Shown: in pieces, positions 248 through 22,447 of the stretch
Layout of the letters: every line of letters begins with the position of its first letter
Position numbering within the stretch: the stretch's first letter is position 1
Origin: Candidatus Aphodenecus pullistercoris
GTDB taxonomy: Bacteria; Spirochaetota; Spirochaetia; Sphaerochaetales; Sphaerochaetaceae
Assembly (NCBI GenBank): GCA_017694495.1
Contig: JADIMU010000004.1
Coordinates: forward strand, 1 to 35,524
Direction of reading: 5' to 3'
Length of the DNA stretch: 35,524 nucleotides
The notes under the pieces: generated by a model
Told to the model about the DNA's origin: nothing
Databases searched by the model: none
Seen by the model: the letters and a program-made list of their open reading frames with translations, nothing else
Program-made: the position numbers and the translations under genes

Positions 248-1489
248 TCATTTATTCTTCTGCGGCCAGCCTTTTCCACTCCTGTTGTCCAGGATGAGGC
301 CTACCAGGGTGAAGATGACTGTCGGGATGAGCCAGAGGAACTTCATGCCAGTCAGTGTCGATACAAGGGATGATAGGGTGGCTGCGGCAGCCGCCAGCTT
401 GTAGGTGCAACCTTTGGCCTTTTCCCTTGGCAGGAAGGCCAGGACCATCAGGGTGACCGCTACAGGGTAGATTACTTCGAGCACTGGGGCCGAGATGCTT
501 ATCATGCGCTCCAGTCCTGTGTTGGCGAGGATGAGAGAGACGATGGCGAAGACCAGGAGCCACATGTCCCTTGAAAGGACGGGAAAGGCCTTCGAGAAGT
601 ATTGTGAGCATGATGACAACAGTCCCGTGCACGTGTTGAAGCATGCCAGGATGAAGACGACTGCGATGAGCTTGTCTCCAAATGCGGGGAAGAGGACCGA
701 TGCAGTGAGGGACAGTATTTCCGCACCAGTGGAGGCTTCCGTCATGAAGGAGTGTGCGCACAGCCCGATCAGGGCAAGGGCGCAGTAGATGAGCAGGATC
801 AGCATTCCACCTGCCACAGAGGCGATGGTGCACTCCTTCTTCATGCCTTCCTCGACACCGAGGGCCTTCACGTTCAGTGTGACTATCGAGGCGAAGACGA
901 GTCCTGCGATCGCATCCATCGTCTGATAGCCTTCAAGGAAACCCTTCTGGAGGGGATGGGATGCATACTGCCACTGTCCCAGACTGGGGGCTGTTGTGGT
1001 CAGCGAGCCGACAGTGAGGACCGCAATCAGGATGACAAGTGTGGGCGAGAGGATTCTGCCAAGCCTGTTCGACAGCCGCTCGGGCCTGCGGGCGAGCAGG
1101 GCCGCAAGAAGGAAGAAGAGCGCACAATAGACGAATCTTGCTATTGCGGAGTCCATTCCTGTCGCCAGTGCCACCATCTCATGGCTTGTGCTCGCTGTCC
1201 TCGGTATGGCGAGGCAGGGGCCGATTGCAAGATAGACCACGACTGTGAACACTTTGCTGAAGGCGGGACTGACCCTTCGGGCAAGCTCTTCCAGGCCTCC
1301 TGCCTTCATCGAGGCGAGCAGTGCGAGTATTGGCAGTCCGATGGCGGAGAGCGCGAAGCCGGAGAAGGCAAGTGGAAAGTCGCCTCCCGACTGGAAGGCG
1401 AGGAAGACGGGGAATATGAGGTTGCCTGCGCCGAAGAACATGGCGAAGACAGTGAACGCTAGTGTCGTCCGTTTTGCCGTCGTCAACAT
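248..1489 (-). CDS. brnQ: BrnQ-type branched-chain amino acid:cation symporter
   Basis: This 413-residue protein has about 12 hydrophobic segments and opens with the family signature around FAMFFGAGNLIFP (residues 16-28). The BrnQ/LivJ family imports leucine, isoleucine and valine with Na+ or H+ across the inner membrane. Its length is normal for the family. The ATG overlaps the end of kptA by 7 bases (ATGTTGA), so the two genes are translationally coupled. No strong ribosome binding site is visible before the ATG, which fits coupling. Family assignment is firm; the exact substrate is inferred from the family. Confidence 0.9.
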   Translation of the reverse strand: MLTTAKRTTLAFTVFAMFFGAGNLIFPVFLAFQSGGDFPLAFSGFALSAIGLPILALLASMKAGGLEELARRVSPAFSKVFTVVVYLAIGPCLAIPRTASTSHEMVALATGMDSAIARFVYCALFFLLAALLARRPERLSNRLGRILSPTLVILIAVLTVGSLTTTAPSLGQWQYASHPLQKGFLEGYQTMDAIAGLVFASIVTLNVKALGVEEGMKKECTIASVAGGMLILLIYCALALIGLCAHSFMTEASTGAEILSLTASVLFPAFGDKLIAVVFILACFNTCTGLLSSCSQYFSKAFPVLSRDMWLLVFAIVSLILANTGLERMISISAPVLEVIYPVAVTLMVLAFLPREKAKGCTYKLAAAAATLSSLVSTLTGMKFLWLIPTVIFTLVGLILDNRSGKGWPQKNK

Positions 1490-2049
1490 GGCTTTGTCCC
1501 TGCTGCCAGGATGCTGATGTATCGTGGAGGAAGCGGGTCCGAGAGGAATATGTCTTCGTTGCCTTCGTAGAAGCGTATGCCATCTGTCCAGGCGTCATGG
1601 GCCCTGATCTGGAGGAGGGGAGGATCCGGATCCCGTCGTCTTCCCGCCTCGAGGGCAGTCTCCTTCGTCGACGACAGGTGTACATGCTGACGGTTCATCG
1701 GCTTGAGGCCCTCTGCCAGGACGAGGGGCAGGGCCTTGTGGCTCGTGGCATGGTACAGGACTTCCGGTGGCTCAGTCAGGGGTCGTACAACCTCCTCTTT
1801 GACGCTGTGTCCGTAGTATGCCCTTATCCGGCCGCCCTCGATGACGAGACGTCTCTTTCCTGGCAAGCTCAGGATCTCGTCGAGGTCTCTATGCGTGATT
1901 GGCCGTCCCAGAGCCTTCGAGAGCCCATCGAGAAGATCCTCGACAGGTACAGAGCCGTCCTGTGCGAGAGTGAGGCCGAAGGCTGAGGGATTGTGGCGCA
2001 GTGCATAGGAGATCGTCTTGGAGATTCTGATGGCTTTTTTGTCTTCCAT
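1483..2049 (-). CDS. kptA: RNA 2'-phosphotransferase (Tpt1/KptA family)
   Basis: The Tpt1/KptA family removes an internal 2'-phosphate from RNA using NAD+, giving ADP-ribose 1'',2''-cyclic phosphate. In this 188-residue protein the catalytic Arg18-His19 lies in ISYALRHNP. The second conserved block, IRAYYGHS, and the NAD-binding HATSHKALPLVLAEGL block are also present, so it looks active. I chose ATG 2049; an in-frame TTG two codons upstream is the alternative. It follows the BrxD-like ATPase by 59 bases on the same strand and overlaps brnQ, so it may share their transcript. Bacteria generally lack the tRNA splicing that creates the eukaryotic substrate, so the physiological role is open. Confidence 0.9.
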   Translation of the reverse strand: MEDKKAIRISKTISYALRHNPSAFGLTLAQDGSVPVEDLLDGLSKALGRPITHRDLDEILSLPGKRRLVIEGGRIRAYYGHSVKEEVVRPLTEPPEVLYHATSHKALPLVLAEGLKPMNRQHVHLSSTKETALEAGRRRDPDPPLLQIRAHDAWTDGIRFYEGNEDIFLSDPLPPRYISILAAGTKPC

Positions 2050-2108
2050 CGGCAACTTCCCTGGCAGAGGACAGCTGTGGGGCAGAGACTGTCCCCACAG
2101 CGTAAGTT

Positions 2109-3305
2109 TCAGTCGAAGAGGTCCTTCAGACTGTCGTCCTCGCTGAGGTCCTCCTTCTCTACTGTCGTCGACGTGACGTTCCCCGCCACTCCGTATTGCA
2201 TGACTTGGTCGAGGTATTCGATTGCGGCACGGACCTTTGTCCTCAGCAGATAGCCGGCATTGTCCGCTACTGTGAAGAGAGCGTCGAGGTCCACTTCATG
2301 AGTGCCGAAAGCCTTGCTGTGGAGCCGTGCGATCTCGTCGATGCTGCTTCTGAGCTCATCCCTGGTCAGCCTGGCGAGCATGTCGCCATTGCATATCCTG
2401 TCGAGGACGGATTTGGCCGCATCCTTGTCCGCATGGCTGTCCTCACCCAGCTCAAGCGCGCCGTACTCGTCCTTGCCGTTGATGATCTCTTCCGGGTAGG
2501 AGGATGCGAAGGCGTAGACTGTGTAGACGGAGTCCAGACAATGGGGAGGTGTCAGGAACCTGGACATGTTCAGGTAGGCCTTCTTCCTCGACTTCCTGCC
2601 AAGACGGCCGATGAGCTCGGCTTCATCGAAGAGGATGACCCATCCCTTGCACCCGATGATCTTAAGCAGGTGCGACATGAAGCCGAAGTAGTCGAAGAAG
2701 TGCTTCGAGCGTTCGAACTTCGTCTTGAACTCGGGCTTCTCCCCGAAGAACCTGGCATAGCACTGGCGTATCATGCCCACTGTTGTCAGACGGCCTCTGA
2801 GGTCGGCTTCGAATGCGCTGTGCTCTTCGCTGTCGCGAGAGGCGAGGAAGTCCCGGAAGACATAGTAGAGCCTGTCGCTGTCCAGCTCAGTCGCGGCGTA
2901 GAGGAGGGCGCTCTTCGTCTTCTCGCTGTTGAGCTGGAAGTTCTCAGCCTTATAGAGGAAACCTGGCTGGACCTGGCCGGGGAGGAAGGTGTTTCCAATC
3001 AGCTTCTGGTAGAGCGTCTGAAGGTTGTTCGCTGGGGCCTCCTTCGACAGTGGCAGCATCGAGACGGCCATACCTTGGGCCATCGCCATGGAGGCGACCG
3101 TGTTCAGCAGGTGAGTCTTGCCTTCACCATAATTTCCGAGGATGATCCGACCATTCGAGTGTCCCGATTCTGCGACGGCTGCGATGTCGTCGGCAATCGA
3201 ATCAAGCAGCTCTCCTCTGGAAGATGAGAAGTAGGCTCCCACATCCCTGGACGGGACTCCGCTCCTGAGGGCCTCGATCATGTGGCGTGATTTGAAATCA
3301 GGCAT
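2109..3305 (-). CDS. BrxD-like (DUF2791) P-loop ATPase
   Basis: This is a 398-residue cytoplasmic ATPase. Walker A is GNYGEGKTH (residues 57-65), Walker B is VILFDEAE (223-230), and YAFASSYPEEI (264-274) is a likely sensor strand. The G-x-Y-G-x-GKTH loop and FDEAE box match the DUF2791/BrxD ATPases found in BREX phage-defence loci and related islands. ATG 3305 is chosen because AGGAGG stands just before it; the longer open frame upstream lies inside the preceding gene. It overlaps that gene by 8 bases. No BrxC, PglX methyltransferase or PglZ is present, so this is not a standard BREX locus. Family similarity is by motif reading; function is inferred. Confidence 0.75.
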   Translation of the reverse strand: MPDFKSRHMIEALRSGVPSRDVGAYFSSSRGELLDSIADDIAAVAESGHSNGRIILGNYGEGKTHLLNTVASMAMAQGMAVSMLPLSKEAPANNLQTLYQKLIGNTFLPGQVQPGFLYKAENFQLNSEKTKSALLYAATELDSDRLYYVFRDFLASRDSEEHSAFEADLRGRLTTVGMIRQCYARFFGEKPEFKTKFERSKHFFDYFGFMSHLLKIIGCKGWVILFDEAELIGRLGRKSRKKAYLNMSRFLTPPHCLDSVYTVYAFASSYPEEIINGKDEYGALELGEDSHADKDAAKSVLDRICNGDMLARLTRDELRSSIDEIARLHSKAFGTHEVDLDALFTVADNAGYLLRTKVRAAIEYLDQVMQYGVAGNVTSTTVEKEDLSEDDSLKDLFD

Positions 3306-4518
3306 TCTCTTCCTCCTGGGCACCGGATTCGAGCTGGAAGGTACAGTTGCTGACGAGCACCGGCAGCGAGAGGCTCGCGAACTTGGCCTTCTCGACCAGC
3401 TCGTTTGCTTTGGTCTCGTCAAGGGGATGGGCTTTCACATCGACGTCGTTGCTGAGGTCGCACAGACGACGTGACATTCCCATAATCGCCTCTGGCGTGA
3501 AGAAGTCCCTGTTGGCATTGTCCAGATCCAGCATGGATGTGAAGAAGTTGAGTCGGCCGGAGACGATTTCGTTCTGCATCCTGAGCCATAGGGCATGGTA
3601 GCTCTTGAGGCCCTTGCGTTCGTCGTCCACCAGGATGCGGTCGAAGGCGAAGAGGAAGAAGACGTAGCGGAAAGTGTCGATGTCGTCGATCAGCTGCCTC
3701 AGACTCTCGTATGTGTCGTCGCGGCGCATCTTTGTGTAGTGGTTCTTGCCCAGCGCTGTGGACGAGGCCAGAACGTCGAGGTTGTCGACCGATATGAACA
3801 GGCCTTTGTAGCCGGACAGCCTCACGAGCTCGCAAAGGGAGCGCAGCATGTAGCGCGCGTTCGCCTTGTCGATCTTGTAGGTGGACATTCCCAGTGCGCG
3901 CAGCGATGGAATGCTCATGTCCTTCTCGCCTCTGAGCCATTTGAGCACAGTCTGGCGGCCATTGTCCTCGAGGTCCAGCATCCCGATGTGGTCTCCCGCC
4001 AGCAGCGAGCATGCCGATGCGAAGTTCACATCCATGTAGGGATTGCCGCTGAAACGCTGCTTGATGGCGGTGCGCACCTCCCTTCTTGTGACGGGATCCA
4101 GCTGGTCTGCGTCAGAAAGGAAGTCCATGAAGCTCTTTCCCGACTCGGGCGTCCAGCCATAGCCGAGGTCCATGGCCGTGTCGTTCGCAATCTTCTCGAC
4201 CAGAGGTATGATGTCGAATGAGTTGAAGACGGCCCTGTAGAGTGACGAGAAGTCCGAAAGCAGGATGTCGTCGGCATCAAGAGTGACGGGAAGCAGTCCC
4301 GCGGCTGCGGCATCGGCCGCGGCCAGGGTGATGAGGTGCGTCTTGCCGGCGCCCTTTCTGCCACTGACGAACTTGATCGAGCTGCCGCCTGCTGCGATGA
4401 AGTCCTCGAAGTACCACTTCTTCCAGAATGCTGTAATGCGGTCGAGCCCCACAGTGACGGCCCTGAGCACCGTCTCATCAGTGGGGACTGCACCGTTCAG
4501 GAAAGCCAGAGAGGCCAT
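3298..4518 (-). CDS. AAA-type P-loop ATPase, partner of the BrxD-like protein
   Basis: This 406-residue protein has Walker A GRKGAGKTH (53-61) and a Walker B-like strand LFISVDNLD (240-248), where the usual Glu after Asp is replaced by Asn. The layout resembles ORC/Cdc6-like or BrxC/BrxD-like ATPases that load onto DNA or partner proteins. The N-terminal 50 residues are not recognisable. AGGAGG sits just upstream of ATG 4518. The gene starts 11 bases after the 256-residue protein and overlaps the second ATPase, so the three were probably selected as one unit. Two adjacent ATPases of similar size suggest a hetero-oligomer. The atypical Walker B may mean slow or absent hydrolysis in this subunit. 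Confidence 0.65.
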   Translation of the reverse strand: MASLAFLNGAVPTDETVLRAVTVGLDRITAFWKKWYFEDFIAAGGSSIKFVSGRKGAGKTHLITLAAADAAAAGLLPVTLDADDILLSDFSSLYRAVFNSFDIIPLVEKIANDTAMDLGYGWTPESGKSFMDFLSDADQLDPVTRREVRTAIKQRFSGNPYMDVNFASACSLLAGDHIGMLDLEDNGRQTVLKWLRGEKDMSIPSLRALGMSTYKIDKANARYMLRSLCELVRLSGYKGLFISVDNLDVLASSTALGKNHYTKMRRDDTYESLRQLIDDIDTFRYVFFLFAFDRILVDDERKGLKSYHALWLRMQNEIVSGRLNFFTSMLDLDNANRDFFTPEAIMGMSRRLCDLSNDVDVKAHPLDETKANELVEKAKFASLSLPVLVSNCTFQLESGAQEEENA

Positions 4519-4529
4519 CTTGTCCTCCT

Positions 4530-5300
4530 TCAGTAGAAGCGGACGGAGCCGAGGAACTGCTCGCGTCCATTGGCGTCCAGAATCCTGTAGGAAGCGGCGT
4601 TGGCCCTTTCAGTGCCGAACTCGATCTTGTGCCCGCTCTTGAGCTCGACGCTGTCGGCGACTGAATAGAGCCTGGCAATGTCATAGGCGAAGGCCTGTTC
4701 CGGGTATCCGCTCTTGAGCCTGGCGATTGGGACGAGGGCAGAGTAGATGTTCTTGAGCATGATGGGGGAGCCGGCCTGCACTTTGCTTTGTAATGCGATG
4801 CATATGTCGTATCCCTTCTCGAGCTCGGAGGCGAACTTCTGAGCGTTGAAGGAGGCGGCCTGGAGCTTGTCGAGCTCAGCCTTGACGAGGTCGGCGATGT
4901 AGCTGGGCCTGGAGGTCGAGAACTTCTTCCGGTTCAGGTAGATGTCCTGGTTCTCGGCATCGATGCGCAGTTTATAGGGAAAGACCTCGTAGACGGGAGC
5001 ATCCCCTACGATGTCGACACCGAGCTGGGCGAAGTGTGTGACCAGCTGGCAAGCGAACTCTCCGGATGTGAAGTAGTCCTTGCTGTCGAAGGAGCTTATG
5101 CTCTCTTCTAGGGCCTGGGCGCTTGCACTGGCATTTTCGATGGCCTCTCTGAGAGCCGCCATGTCCTTGGCCGCCGCCTTGGTGTCGCCTTTGGCAATGT
5201 CCTTGTCGACAAGTTTCTGGAGCTTCGCCACGAGGGCAGCCGCATCCTTCATCTCCTTCGCATGAGGAGTGTAGTCAGAGAAAAATGATTCGTAATCCAT
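4530..5300 (-). CDS. Uncharacterised protein, first gene of the ATPase operon
   Basis: I do not recognise this 256-residue protein. Residues about 10-60 are rich in Lys, Asp and Ala with heptad-like spacing and probably form a helical coiled coil. The central part (about 65-125) is mixed and ends in a basic KKFSTSRPSY stretch. The C-terminal third, with KIEFGTERANAASYRILDANG, looks like beta strands. No signal peptide, membrane segment or nuclease motif is seen. ATG 5300 has AGGAA upstream and follows a TGATAGAAT promoter element. It leads the operon with the two ATPases and faces the helicase gene, so it may be the specificity or adaptor component; that is inference. Confidence 0.6.
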   Translation of the reverse strand: MDYESFFSDYTPHAKEMKDAAALVAKLQKLVDKDIAKGDTKAAAKDMAALREAIENASASAQALEESISSFDSKDYFTSGEFACQLVTHFAQLGVDIVGDAPVYEVFPYKLRIDAENQDIYLNRKKFSTSRPSYIADLVKAELDKLQAASFNAQKFASELEKGYDICIALQSKVQAGSPIMLKNIYSALVPIARLKSGYPEQAFAYDIARLYSVADSVELKSGHKIEFGTERANAASYRILDANGREQFLGSVRFY

Positions 5301-5323
5301 AGTGTTCCTGTCTTTGCTGTCAG

Positions 5324-5332
5324 ATTCTATCA
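5324..5332 (-). promoter_or_regulatory. Extended -10 element of the leftward operon
   Basis: On the minus strand TGATAGAAT lies 23 bases before ATG 5300 and matches an extended -10 box (TGnTAtAAT). No good -35 sits at the usual distance. That region is instead occupied by the inverted repeat at 5341-5366, consistent with a regulated promoter. Confidence 0.4.
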
Positions 5333-5340
5333 CAAATCGG

Positions 5341-5366
5341 CAATGCGATTGAACATGGGCGCATTG
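5341..5366. promoter_or_regulatory. Inverted repeat between divergent operons
   Basis: Perfect 7-base arms CAATGCG and CGCATTG (5341-5347 and 5360-5366) are separated by 12 bases, giving 19 bp centre to centre, about two helical turns. It lies upstream of the leftward -10 box and directly before the helicase start. This is the expected place for an operator controlling both the helicase and the ATPase operon. No regulator gene is adjacent. Confidence 0.4.
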
Positions 5367-5383
5367 AAGTGCATGATTTGGAC

Positions 5384-6964
5384 ATGGTTCCATACAAGTG
5401 GCAGCGGGAATGTGTCGAACAGTGGTTCGCCCATGGCTGCAGGGGCATCGTCGAGGTCATCACTGGTGCCGGAAAGACGCATATGGCAATGCTTGCGATG
5501 AGAGCCCTTCTCGAGGCATGCGGCACGGAGATCAGGACCTTCATCCTTGTTCCACGTGTCGCCCTCGCCTCTCAGTGGAAGGATGCTCTGCTCAAGGTCG
5601 GATGCCGGCAGAGCGACGTGTCGATCCTTGCTGGTGGGCGCCCCTTCAGGGAAGACTGCCCCATATGCATCGGAGTCATCAATTCGGCCCGTTACCGCTT
5701 CGCACGCATGATCGCCGACCTGAATGCCGCTGGAGCCTCCGTCCTCCTCATCGCTGACGAATACCATCATTATGCCAGCGGGGAGAACTCGAAGGTCTTC
5801 GACTTCCTCAAAAGTCCGACCTTCGACGAGTCGCGCTACTTCGCGCTTGGTCTGTCTGCGACCGCCGACCTCAAACCATACAAGGCTGACTTGAGCCGCC
5901 TGATTGGACCCATGGTCTACTCCTATTCGATTGACGATGGTTTGGAGGAGGGGATAATCAACCCATTCGACATCTTCTCCATCTCCATCCAGCTGGACGG
6001 GGAGAAACAGGAGGAATACTGGTCTCTGACCCATTCGATAGAGCTTGCGACCGCCCGGCTCAGGAAGCTTGTCCCATCCGTGATGAAGCGCAAGGACCTG
6101 CCATTCGAGTCCTTGCTCGATATGATGCGCAGGCACAGCTCGCAGAAGGTCAAGGAGCTTGCCGACAGGCTCTTCGACCTCCTGCTGCGCCGCCGTGCTC
6201 TGATCATCAACGCCGATGGCAGAATATCTGCCGCCAGCCGCATCATTGAACATCTTACCAAGCATAGGAGGATCATGGTCTTCAGTGAGCGGATTGAACA
6301 GGCGGAAGCGCTCCGCTGTCTTCTTGATTCCAGTTTTCCGGGCCAATGCGGCATCTACCACAGCAAGCTTGACAGACAGATGTGCCGACGCATGCTTGAC
6401 AGCTTCCGTTGCGGCGACATCCGCATTCTGATCGCATGCAAGGCCCTCGACGAGGGTATAGATGTCCCGGATGCTGATGTAGGCATATTCATGTCGAACA
6501 CCGAGAGCCAGAGACAGCGCATCCAGAGGGCGGGGCGGCTCCTGAGACGCAGTGAAGGCAAGCTGCGCTCCTGCCTTTATTACATCTACGTCGCAGGAAC
6601 AGTGGAGTCGCCACACTTTCTGAACGTCTCCTCGAAGGATGTGAACGAAATACTCGGCAGGTATGACGAAAAGGGCGGCTTCCTGATCGAGTCCCTCTCC
6701 GACGCTGTCCACTCCATGCTGGCGAAGGTCGCCGACAAGGCGACTGCCTCCCAGCTCGTCGAGATTGACCGTGCCCTTGCCAGCGGCTGTCTTGTCAACG
6801 ACTTCCTGCAGGACGAGTCCTATATCCAGCGGATGATCGAGACGGATGGGAGGCCTTCCTACTGGAGGACGATGAAGGAGCTCGGACGACAGTGGCGCAA
6901 CCTTGAAGCTGGGAGGTTTGAAGACGTCACTTCCGAGACTCCTGCCATGCTGTCTGACACCTGA
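5384..6964 (+). CDS. SF2 DEAD/DEAH-type helicase (XPB/SSL2-like)
   Basis: This 526-residue protein carries a full set of superfamily 2 motifs: Q-like YKWQREC (4-10), Walker A TGAGKTH (27-33), DEYH (125-128), LSATAD (157-162), motif V KALDEGIDVPD (353-363) and motif VI QRIQRAGRLLRR (378-389). The order and spacing fit the COG1061/XPB-like helicases and the translocase subunits of restriction systems. The C-terminal 90 residues are unrecognised and contain no visible nuclease motif. ATG 5384 gives the natural start just before the Q motif; GTG 5369 is possible. It is transcribed away from the two-ATPase operon from a shared intergenic region, suggesting co-function. An IS30 element lies 38 bases past its stop. 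Confidence 0.85.
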   Translation: MVPYKWQRECVEQWFAHGCRGIVEVITGAGKTHMAMLAMRALLEACGTEIRTFILVPRVALASQWKDALLKVGCRQSDVSILAGGRPFREDCPICIGVINSARYRFARMIADLNAAGASVLLIADEYHHYASGENSKVFDFLKSPTFDESRYFALGLSATADLKPYKADLSRLIGPMVYSYSIDDGLEEGIINPFDIFSISIQLDGEKQEEYWSLTHSIELATARLRKLVPSVMKRKDLPFESLLDMMRRHSSQKVKELADRLFDLLLRRRALIINADGRISAASRIIEHLTKHRRIMVFSERIEQAEALRCLLDSSFPGQCGIYHSKLDRQMCRRMLDSFRCGDIRILIACKALDEGIDVPDADVGIFMSNTESQRQRIQRAGRLLRRSEGKLRSCLYYIYVAGTVESPHFLNVSSKDVNEILGRYDEKGGFLIESLSDAVHSMLAKVADKATASQLVEIDRALASGCLVNDFLQDESYIQRMIETDGRPSYWRTMKELGRQWRNLEAGRFEDVTSETPAMLSDT

Positions 6965-7001: not shown

Positions 7002-8733
7002 GGTCGATTGAAAAGGTAAAAGCAACCCTTACCGAGTAAATGCAACTTTGAAAAGTCAAATGCAATGGTTTTGCAACTTTGAGTTTGACAGAAGGCCATT
7101 TTCAGCCCGAAAATTGGGCTGGAGGATGAAGTTGGTCCATCAAGAGCATACGAAATCCTGGGAGGTGGCTCAGAATCAGTTTTTTGAACTGCTGAACGCA
7201 ACCCCAGAGATTAGGTGAGGATGGGGATGGACGCCGGGCCAGGACAATGTCGAATGCTGGAGTATCAGTCCAGCAGGGATGGCTTGAGGACCACTTCTGA
7301 AGGTTCGATTCTCCTTATGCTGAGTTTGTCCAGTATGTTTGTCCCATACATGAACGAGAAGACATCATAAGGAGAACGTCCTCCCAGCTCTGCCCTCAGG
7401 TAGGAGTTGATGTGGCTCATCATGAGGTCGATCTTCTCCTGGGTGTAGGGGTTCATGGACTTCCCCTTGGGGATCACGCGGCGGATGAGCTCGTGGTTGT
7501 TCTCGCAGGCGCCCTTCTGCTGGCTCTGTCCCGGGTCGCAGTAGAAGACCTGGCTGAGGATCTCGCCTGAGCGGGAGTCCATCTCTATTGGACGCGGGTC
7601 TGAGAACTCGCCGCCATTGTCGGTGACGAGGACAGGAAAGAGGCGTGCATAGGTGTCGTTGCCGAGCAGGGTGCGCAGACGGTCGAACACCTCCACCACA
7701 GAGGCCGCGCTGTTGCGGTCTCTGATGAAGGCGAGCATCAGCCTGCAGTTCGTGAAATGGATGGTAAGCAGACACTTCTCCTCCACGCCCTTCTTCCCCT
7801 CGACGGTGTCCATCTCGACGATGACCACATCGGGATTCTCCTGCCGGAAGGCAAGGTAGTCGGCATAGGTCCTGCCGATCCTGCATGCCTTGTCCTTCTT
7901 CACGTTCTGCTGGCAGCTCTTCTTCCGCTTCTTGTAGCGTACCTTGCGAGGCAGGTCGAGGTTGCCGATCCCTTCGAAGACGCCAGCATCAATATAGGTG
8001 TAGATGGTCTTGGCGCTGTAGCCGACGGCCTCCTCTCCAACCGACTTGATGATGTGGTAGACGGACTGCCCTTTCTTCAATCCTTCCTTGAGGGTGGACC
8101 CCAGCTCCATCGCCTCGTCCTCGCCGATGACGAAGCCCGAGCGGCATCCGCTCAATGTGTGCTCGTACTCGGCCTGCGCCTTCTGTGGTCTGTAGATGTG
8201 CTTCTCCAGATTGCAGTTCGGCCTGCTCGGGCATCCGTTGCACACATATGGAGGCTTCTTCAGCTTCACGCACTTCTCCCTCACATAGGAGGGGCACAGG
8301 CTGGTCATGCAGAAGGATGGGCAGTAGCGGCAGGTGGTCTTTGAGCACTTGTCATTGACGCACTCGCCGTTCGTGGCCTTGCAGCTGTATTTGTTCAGAC
8401 AGTCGTTGTAGCCTTTCCCGAGGCCACCCGTCCTCTCGACCACGAAATGGTTCCTCACTTCACGTGACACCGTCGTGCAGTCCTTGCCTATCGCTTCGGC
8501 TATCTTCTTGAAACTCTCCGATTTGTCCAGTCCGGACTGTATTCTCACCCTGTCCGATAGGGTCAGGTGGGTCTTGGACATCTTTTCCAGGCCTCCTTTC
8601 CATTGGGAATCGCTGCCCTGGACCCGGCGTCCTGAACTGATTATACACCACCGACTTGTTGCAACCCCTGCCGTGAAGAAGTAAACGCGACTGGCTTACT
8701 CGGTAAGGGTGGCATTTACCTTTTCAATCGGCC
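7002..8733 (-). mobile_element. Complete IS30-family insertion sequence, 1732 bp
   Basis: The left end starts GGTCGATTGAAAAGGTAAA; the right end, reverse complemented, starts GGCCGATTGAAAAGGTAAA. Both continue with a shared CCCTTACCGAGTAA block, so the inverted repeats run about 37 bases with only a few mismatches. One transposase gene fills the middle. The noncoding left arm (7040-7264) repeats GCAACTTTGA twice and carries a short hairpin (7103-7121, CAGCCC/GGGCTG). The right arm (8582-8695) holds the transposase ribosome binding site and presumably its promoter. Intact ends, intact gene and exact duplication suggest a recent insertion. Confidence 0.9.
7265..8581 (-). CDS. IS30-family DDE transposase
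   Basis: This 438-residue protein starts with an IS30-type helix-turn-helix (LTLSDRVRIQSGLDKSESF to TTVSREVRNH, residues 7-45). A Cys-rich segment follows (about 61-123, with several C-x2-C and C-x4-C pairs), as in the longer IS30 members. The catalytic core shows Asp258 (VEMDTVEG), Asp321 (VTDNGGEF) and Glu360 (ENNHELIRRVIPKG), all present. ATG 8581 has AGGAGG 10 bases upstream. It moves its own element by cut-and-paste through a circular intermediate, as known for IS30. It seems functional. Confidence 0.95.
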   Translation of the reverse strand: MSKTHLTLSDRVRIQSGLDKSESFKKIAEAIGKDCTTVSREVRNHFVVERTGGLGKGYNDCLNKYSCKATNGECVNDKCSKTTCRYCPSFCMTSLCPSYVREKCVKLKKPPYVCNGCPSRPNCNLEKHIYRPQKAQAEYEHTLSGCRSGFVIGEDEAMELGSTLKEGLKKGQSVYHIIKSVGEEAVGYSAKTIYTYIDAGVFEGIGNLDLPRKVRYKKRKKSCQQNVKKDKACRIGRTYADYLAFRQENPDVVIVEMDTVEGKKGVEEKCLLTIHFTNCRLMLAFIRDRNSAASVVEVFDRLRTLLGNDTYARLFPVLVTDNGGEFSDPRPIEMDSRSGEILSQVFYCDPGQSQQKGACENNHELIRRVIPKGKSMNPYTQEKIDLMMSHINSYLRAELGGRSPYDVFSFMYGTNILDKLSIRRIEPSEVVLKPSLLD

Positions 8734-21607: not shown

Positions 21608-22447
21608 TCAGATGACCAGCTCCATCTCGAACTGCCTGACGTAGACTTCGAAGCCCAGGTGGAGGAGGAAGGACTGGATGGCTTCGTCTGCGACATTGAT
21701 CAGCCTGAGCTGTTTTGATGAGGACATGCTTGCAAGGTCTGAGATGAGACTACGCCCTATGCCCCTTCTCCTGTAGGCCTTGTCCACTGCAAGCTGCGGA
21801 ATGTCCCCATTTGCAGGATTGACCAGACCGTAGCCCACAATCCTTCCATCCAGAGCAACAGTCGAGATGCGCAAGCTGTCGCTGACTGCCCGGACGGAGT
21901 CGCTCGAGTTCTGCCAGGAGGGGCTCTCGTCCCAGAAGTCCTCCATCCGGGTGAAGTCGATGGAGGAGGGGTGGCCGTGCCGGTAGGAGACTTCTGTGTC
22001 CAGAGCAGACTTGTCGACTCTCAGACAGCTGAAGTCGCGCCTCTTCCTGAAGCCTGACTTCTCGTAGAGGGAGAGTGCCTTCGTGTTCGTCGTGATGACT
22101 TCCAGGATGTAGCGCGACAGGCCATTGTCTGCAAGCAGCGTCTTCAGCTGGCCGACCATGTCCTTTGCGATTCCCTGCCCTCGGAAGGTTGGTATGACTC
22201 CAGTGCCCATATCGTAGGCCGTGTCGCAGCCTTCCCAGATTCTATGCCCGCTCATGATGAAGCCGACCAGTCTGCCATCGACATAGGCGCCGACTGAGAC
22301 TGAGGGGTCGTAGCCGTTGCGCTTCATGTTGCTCTGGAAGCGCTCCAGAGGCATGTCGATCTGGACGCTGTAGTCGCCGAAGGCTTCGCAGAAGACGGTG
22401 TGCAATTGCGGAAGTGGTGTGTTCTCAAGACTGGTCAGGACAAGCAT
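21608..22447 (-). CDS. Tandem GNAT-domain acetyltransferase
   Basis: This 279-residue protein holds two GNAT folds. The N-terminal one shows GVIPTFRGQGIAKDMVGQL (acetyl-CoA loop, about 83-101) and ends with NTKALSLYEKSGF. The C-terminal one shows LAVDKAYRRRGIGRSLISDL (about 220-240) and the final HLGFEVYVRQFEMEL. Both have the R/Q-x-x-G-x-G/A pyrophosphate loop. Substrate unknown; double-GNAT proteins of this size include amino acid, peptide and antibiotic acetyltransferases. ATG 22447 has no visible Shine-Dalgarno. The gene is monocistronic in appearance. Confidence 0.85.
   Translation of the reverse strand: MLVLTSLENTPLPQLHTVFCEAFGDYSVQIDMPLERFQSNMKRNGYDPSVSVGAYVDGRLVGFIMSGHRIWEGCDTAYDMGTGVIPTFRGQGIAKDMVGQLKTLLADNGLSRYILEVITTNTKALSLYEKSGFRKRRDFSCLRVDKSALDTEVSYRHGHPSSIDFTRMEDFWDESPSWQNSSDSVRAVSDSLRISTVALDGRIVGYGLVNPANGDIPQLAVDKAYRRRGIGRSLISDLASMSSSKQLRLINVADEAIQSFLLHLGFEVYVRQFEMELVI

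Follow-up and report, generated by a model that had tools for sequence, protein, structure and literature searches.

The spirochaete Candidatus Aphodenecus pullistercoris carries a conserved four-gene cassette for which we found no match among described systems, built from known ATPase and helicase superfamilies together with one new family, which we refer to as the orphan protein. Within this cassette, the genes for the orphan protein and two AAA+ ATPases, BrxD1 and BrxD2, form a unit (the trio), and the DNA motor beside it is exchangeable: XPB-like, BrxHI-like, SNF2, BrxL or Cas3 in different loci. The novelty lies in a trio that travels as a unit, with one ATPase probably dead and with motors, Cas3 among them, that can be interchanged. 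The genomic context of its relatives makes it likely that the cassette functions in defence. The best explanation, which we favour by a modest degree of confidence, might be an AAA+ loader or activator that works with an adaptor to place a translocating motor on invader DNA.

The four genes and their products

We analysed a stretch of 35,524 nucleotides (the window) from a genome of 2.07 Mb (98.6% complete, 70 contigs), whose same-family relatives include Sphaerochaeta-type spirochaetes. The original prediction had described a helicase gene divergent from a tightly packed trio, and the four open reading frames were found at those positions and with that spacing:

2109..3305, minus strand: BrxD2 (ATPase 2), 398 aa from ATG 3305; PF10923 with E-value 1.2e-20; Walker A GNYGEGKTH, Walker B LFDE
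3298..4518, minus strand: BrxD1 (ATPase 1), 406 aa; PF10923 with E-value 2.8e-30; Walker A GRKGAGKTH, Walker B VDNLD
4530..5300, minus strand: orphan protein, putative adaptor, 256 aa, ATG start; no Pfam, NCBIfam or PHROG family
5301..5368, no strand: divergent intergenic region of 68 bp between the two divergent starts, presumed shared promoter region
5369..6964, plus strand: XPB-like SF2 helicase/translocase, 531 aa from GTG 5369

For the helicase, ATG 5384 is a likelier start than GTG 5369 and matches the N-terminus of its family; the divergent starts of the helicase and orphan genes are 68–83 bp apart. A consensus scan of the 68-bp gap gave no promoter match. The orphan gene and BrxD1 are separated by 11 bp, BrxD1 and BrxD2 overlap by 8 bp, and a Shine-Dalgarno-like GGAGG precedes both ATPase genes. 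The length of 437 aa for the BrxD2 open reading frame is counted from an upstream TTG, compared with 398 aa from ATG 3305.

Only the second ATPase had been predicted to be BrxD-like. This assignment was correct but too narrow, as both proteins belong to the BrxC/D family (PF10923, 3e-30 and 1e-20), scoring 106 bits (BrxD1) and 74 bits (BrxD2) against a gathering threshold of 22.2. Their scores for the NCBIfam BrxD equivalog NF033438, 68 and 51 bits, fall below its cut-off of 350. Profile searches also returned weak DnaA/Hda/DnaI-like matches for the ATPases. In the homologue alignment, the residue after the Walker B Asp of BrxD1 is D in 45 sequences, N in 26 and C in one, so that the catalytic Glu occurs in 0 of 72; in BrxD2 it is E in all 71 readable homologues, with Walker A kept. 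BrxD1 has kept its Walker A across the main clade and lost it in five distant loci (L096, L166, L167, L169 and L170), in all of which BrxD2 is intact. Both ATPases look intact in the BrxHI-linked variants (L155 and L188). BrxD1 is probably hydrolysis-deficient, and one ATPase of the pair might be taking on a structural or regulatory role, as seen in hetero-oligomeric AAA+ complexes of the ORC/Cdc6 type. Judged by sequence alone, the two proteins make up the paralogous pair of an active and a hydrolysis-deficient AAA+ subunit expected of an ORC/Cdc6-like loader, and the stoichiometry of BrxD1 and BrxD2, like the loss of BrxD1 activity, is to be read as a suggestion at the same level. ORC/Cdc6-type loaders put a helicase onto DNA as AAA+ hetero-oligomers that combine active subunits with inactive ones. 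Their cargo is a replicative hexamer, whereas the cargo in the window would be an SF2-type or other translocase, and structure searches with the orphan adaptor gave no significant match.

The helicase (ResIII 3e-17, Helicase_C 8e-17) has intact SF2 motifs: TGAGKT, DEYH in the window (DECH in most relatives), GLSAT and QRIQRAGRLLRR. Its nearest solved relatives by profile are the archaeal XPBII/RAD25 helicases (E 4e-37). Domain and motif searches detected no nuclease domain in the helicase, and profile searches of the four proteins found neither a nuclease nor a modification enzyme or methyltransferase gene in the cassette.

The orphan protein matched no family in Pfam, NCBIfam or PHROG and no credible family in PADLOC. 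The candidates LmuA (PADLOC E 0.009) and Csm2 (0.13) were weak, at 10–14 bits, and were treated as chance. An AlphaFold2 model based on an alignment of 65 homologues reached a mean pLDDT of 93.3, compared with a poor 58 from six sequences. The model shows a long helical hairpin (residues 3–70) followed by a C-terminal region built of helices and beta hairpins, whose last three strands cover the conserved 'GR..FGPSR...IRILD..G.E..L.TIRF'. Fold searches of the PDB and a viral library gave no significant match, with the hairpin as the only region tested well. The top Foldseek row in the PDB, the C-terminal domain of yeast Cdt1, had a non-significant E of 0.56, and the matches in the VIA list cover the hairpin alone (residues 1–72), so that these searches rule out no family and give no pointer to function. 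Searches of phage, IMG/VR and plasmid collections turned up no member of the close orphan family. Its position, its constancy and the lack of recognisable catalytic motifs suggest that the orphan protein could be an adaptor or DNA-contact subunit.

Conservation and distribution of the trio

The order orphan–BrxD1–BrxD2 on one strand is retained in all 70 homologous loci from Bacillota and Spirochaetota, a set that includes a few near-identical loci, and this constancy argues that the cassette is more than a chance arrangement. An XPB-like helicase gene is adjacent in 60 of the 70 loci (divergent in 47, one of them with a fragment only; co-directional upstream in 12; downstream in 1), and 10 loci have none nearby. 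For nine loci without an intact neighbouring helicase, a search of the whole genome located the gene elsewhere in four cases and not at all in five (L043, L056, L069, L072 and L073); it is also absent from the distant genome G177. Because the gene order is invariant in the 70 loci and the helicase is sometimes missing, the unit is the trio, which the helicase usually accompanies. The proposed four-gene system proved to be distinct, conserved and patchy, and the original idea that its paired ATPases load a helicase is plausible, but its fixed unit is the three-gene trio, not all four genes.

A scan of 84,980 species genomes yielded 68 loci, in Spirochaetota and Bacillota, of which one (L079) is a remnant only. 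Five further genera of the family encode the orphan protein: four have the same four genes, and in the other the orphan gene is the last before the contig end. Carriers account for 1 of 16 congeners, 6 of 61 relatives and 9 of 297 genomes of the class, and for 9 of 299 genomes in the family sample of a Lachnospiraceae carrier and 15 of 299 in the phylum sample of a Clostridiales carrier. The distribution is patchy, covering 1–5% of genomes rather than being core.

The genes surrounding the cassette vary from locus to locus. In the trio tree, the window copy forms a long branch outside the other spirochaetes, and since this branch is not nested among them, the exact origin of the window cassette is uncertain. 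Four congeners, G014 as the closest relative and three others, have DNA upstream of the conserved gltABC genes that is unrelated to the BrnQ–KptA–cassette–IS30 block of the window, which fits acquisition of the cassette by transfer, although no empty site could be located.

The window copy itself does not lie in a defence island; it is surrounded by metabolic genes and a transposase gene, namely those for BrnQ, KptA, glutamate synthase and an IS30 enzyme. The IS30-family transposase gene (7265–8581, minus strand) adjoins the helicase and lies between the cassette and the conserved glutamate synthase genes. KptA/Tpt1 RNA 2'-phosphotransferase (1483–2055, minus strand) is encoded in the same direction as BrxD2, 53 bp downstream of it. 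KptA was ruled out as part of the cassette, being present in no other cassette locus; among congeners, it occurs in 1 of 15, elsewhere in that genome.

Motors and defence genes beside related trios

The recognisable partners of divergent trios are mostly DNA-translocating ATPases whose type varies. On a 27-kb plasmid of Desulfomonile tiedjei (L155), the orphan protein (profile E 5e-9), two BrxD proteins and a BrxHI-like DEAD helicase are encoded in a tight gene run. Locus L188, from a different class of spirochaetes, is laid out alike, but its helicase reading frame is broken into two parts. Directly downstream of the trio, L169 and L170 encode an SNF2 motor (E 5e-49) and a protein of ~190 aa. 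The gene next to the trio in L171 is BrxL (ATPase domain E 1e-90). Two trios are found within CRISPR-Cas loci: that of L167 (type I-B) is co-directional, between cas3b (E 4e-188) and cas1 (E 4e-86), and that of L166 (type I-D) lies between cas3d (1e-48; cas5d 6e-19) and cas1, in a locus whose array has at least 18 CRISPR repeats. A second copy in genome G794 (L168) is ~1.8 kb from the divergent type 3 BREX genes BrxF–BrxC–PglXI. No motor was seen next to the trio in L172 and L174. It may be, at somewhat less than even odds, that several otherwise unrelated immune systems plug a portable AAA+ loader trio with one dead ATPase into their own DNA motor.

The CRISPR-linked trios span 5312–10854 in L166 and 4709–10263 in L167. 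Their orphan proteins are 75% identical and their Cas1 proteins 93% identical despite the different effector subtypes, suggesting that the trio and the adaptation genes stayed or travelled as one while the effectors were replaced. In an Ammonifex MAG (L079, 7898–8600), a truncated orphan gene follows cas3b beside a CARF-like frame and is a remnant of a CRISPR-linked trio. The ~190-aa protein between trio and SNF2 (10899–11477 in L169, 10858–11418 in L170; 75% identical) is conserved and has no family assignment. In L173 (3901–8577), the genes after the trio encode an Hsp70-like protein and two large proteins without Pfam match. Locus L088, with an unknown–BrxD–BrxD–helicase order, has a similar layout only: its 295-aa first protein shows no recognisable relationship to the orphan protein (hhalign probability 0.7%).

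Among the closer relatives, Septu ptuB is located near the cassette in L034. Specific defence genes (JetA, JetD, PtuB, AbiLi and PDC-S01 candidates) were among the top 25 families listed for a set of 120 flanking genes, and those listed for 120 random genes of carrier genomes were mainly PD-T4-6 kinase, RtcR and mad3 look-alikes, mostly of a housekeeping kind. As a comparison of two lists with no formal enrichment statistic, this is suggestive of a defence association. Many of the relatives' copies also lie among ordinary metabolic genes.

Known systems, a possible mechanism and its alternatives

As the original prediction anticipated, profile searches of the four proteins matched no named system and the BREX core is missing. 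The whole genome has no PglZ (PF08665) and no PF10923 protein besides BrxD1 and BrxD2, and so no BrxC/PglY. BrxD is classed as an ORC/Cdc6-type AAA+ ATPase and proposed as the loader of BrxHI in the passages available from a 2026 BREX survey (PMC12839542), which do not contain the trio. The BrxD–BrxHI dyad of type 2 BREX described there resembles the cassette in pairing a BrxC/D-family ATPase with an SF2 helicase, for which loading is likewise proposed. The dyad, however, has one BrxD, no dead partner and no orphan adaptor; its helicase is Ski2/Lhr-like rather than XPB-like, and it sits in a modification system with PglZ, BrxC and PglX, which the window lacks.

Shango, an anti-phage system with a BrxD-like ATPase and a helicase (PMC10250203), is a similarly small operon with an SF2 helicase. 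It has one ATPase only, its SngC is BrxHI-like (E 9e-124) whereas the window helicase is XPB-like, and its SngA, a TerB_N/TerB_C protein, could not be related to the orphan protein, which has no TerB match and aligned to a congener SngA with a probability of 0.05% in a profile comparison. The best SngB match in the genome of the window is 2.9e-14, the others being weaker, compared with ~1e-185 in congeners, and Shango was rejected. Full Shango systems are present in the congeners G001, G009 and G012 (L087, L089 and L090). A GNAT gene near Shango in L090, and partly in L089, is a homologue of window positions 21608–22447 (49% identity).

PbeABCD shares with the window the helicase domain: our helicase resembles the helicase part of PbeA alone (E 1e-57, PbeA positions 251–635) and begins at the helicase, lacking the N-terminal region that is described as an HKD nuclease in PMC10853773. 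According to PMC6459918 and PMC10853773, the system also comprises a CxC ABC ATPase, PbeC, and a relative of DndE, PbeD. Neither is present in the window, where the neighbours are PF10923 AAA+ proteins and the orphan protein, and PbeABCD was rejected. The literature searched, with subscription papers and bioRxiv preprints mostly outside it, contained no description of the features of the trio.

The orphan protein, BrxD1 and BrxD2 might assemble into a hetero-oligomeric AAA+ machine. BrxD2 would hydrolyse ATP, BrxD1 would play a structural or regulatory part without hydrolysis, and the orphan protein could be an adaptor contacting DNA, a target or the motor. Such a machine would place or activate a DNA translocase, the XPB-like helicase in the window, on invading DNA. 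Because no nuclease or methyltransferase is encoded, restriction would block or remodel the replication of invader DNA rather than cut it. We infer complex formation, loading, sensing and anti-invader activity, and consider motor loading slightly better than an even bet as the mechanism.

The cassette could instead serve DNA repair or replication restart as an accessory, the AAA+ pair loading the XPB-like helicase where the DNA of the cell itself is stalled or damaged. This is unlikely: the kinship with archaeal repair helicases, the weak DnaA/Hda/DnaI-like matches of the ATPases and the many copies among metabolic genes would fit it, but presence in 1–5% of genomes is not that of a core function, and distant trios are found inside CRISPR-Cas loci and with BrxL, Cas3 and Zorya/Dpd-like SNF2 motors. 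Somewhat less probable still is a system directed against plasmids or mobile elements, Wadjet-like in purpose, in which the motor machine would silence or evict incoming circular DNA. In Blautia schinkii (L042), Wadjet jetD–jetA lies directly downstream of the cassette, which itself lacks a nuclease or modification enzyme; this adjacency was seen once, however, and a related trio sits on the Desulfomonile plasmid itself. That only the four-gene version is functional, with Cas3, SNF2 and BrxL being chance neighbours in defence islands, is improbable, since, even though each alternative motor occurs in one to three loci and the BREX genes of L168 are divergent and ~1.8 kb away, the motors of L155 and L169–L171 run in the direction of the trio and directly adjoin or overlap it, and two CRISPR subtypes share the cas3–trio–cas1 order, of which a third genome keeps a remnant.

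Under the motor-loading mechanism, the cassette of the window is a compact version whose loader, dead subunit, adaptor and motor could be tested separately. The orphan adaptor family, new to the libraries searched, could serve annotators as a marker of the system. The position of the trio beside cas3 in type I-B and I-D loci, which we did not find described in the literature searched, suggests a Cas3 accessory; if this is true, Cas3 recruitment or activation in type I CRISPR-Cas would depend on a second, non-Cas machine. If the motor-loading explanation holds, the proposed link between BrxD and a helicase would be a general, exchangeable defence module rather than a detail of BREX.
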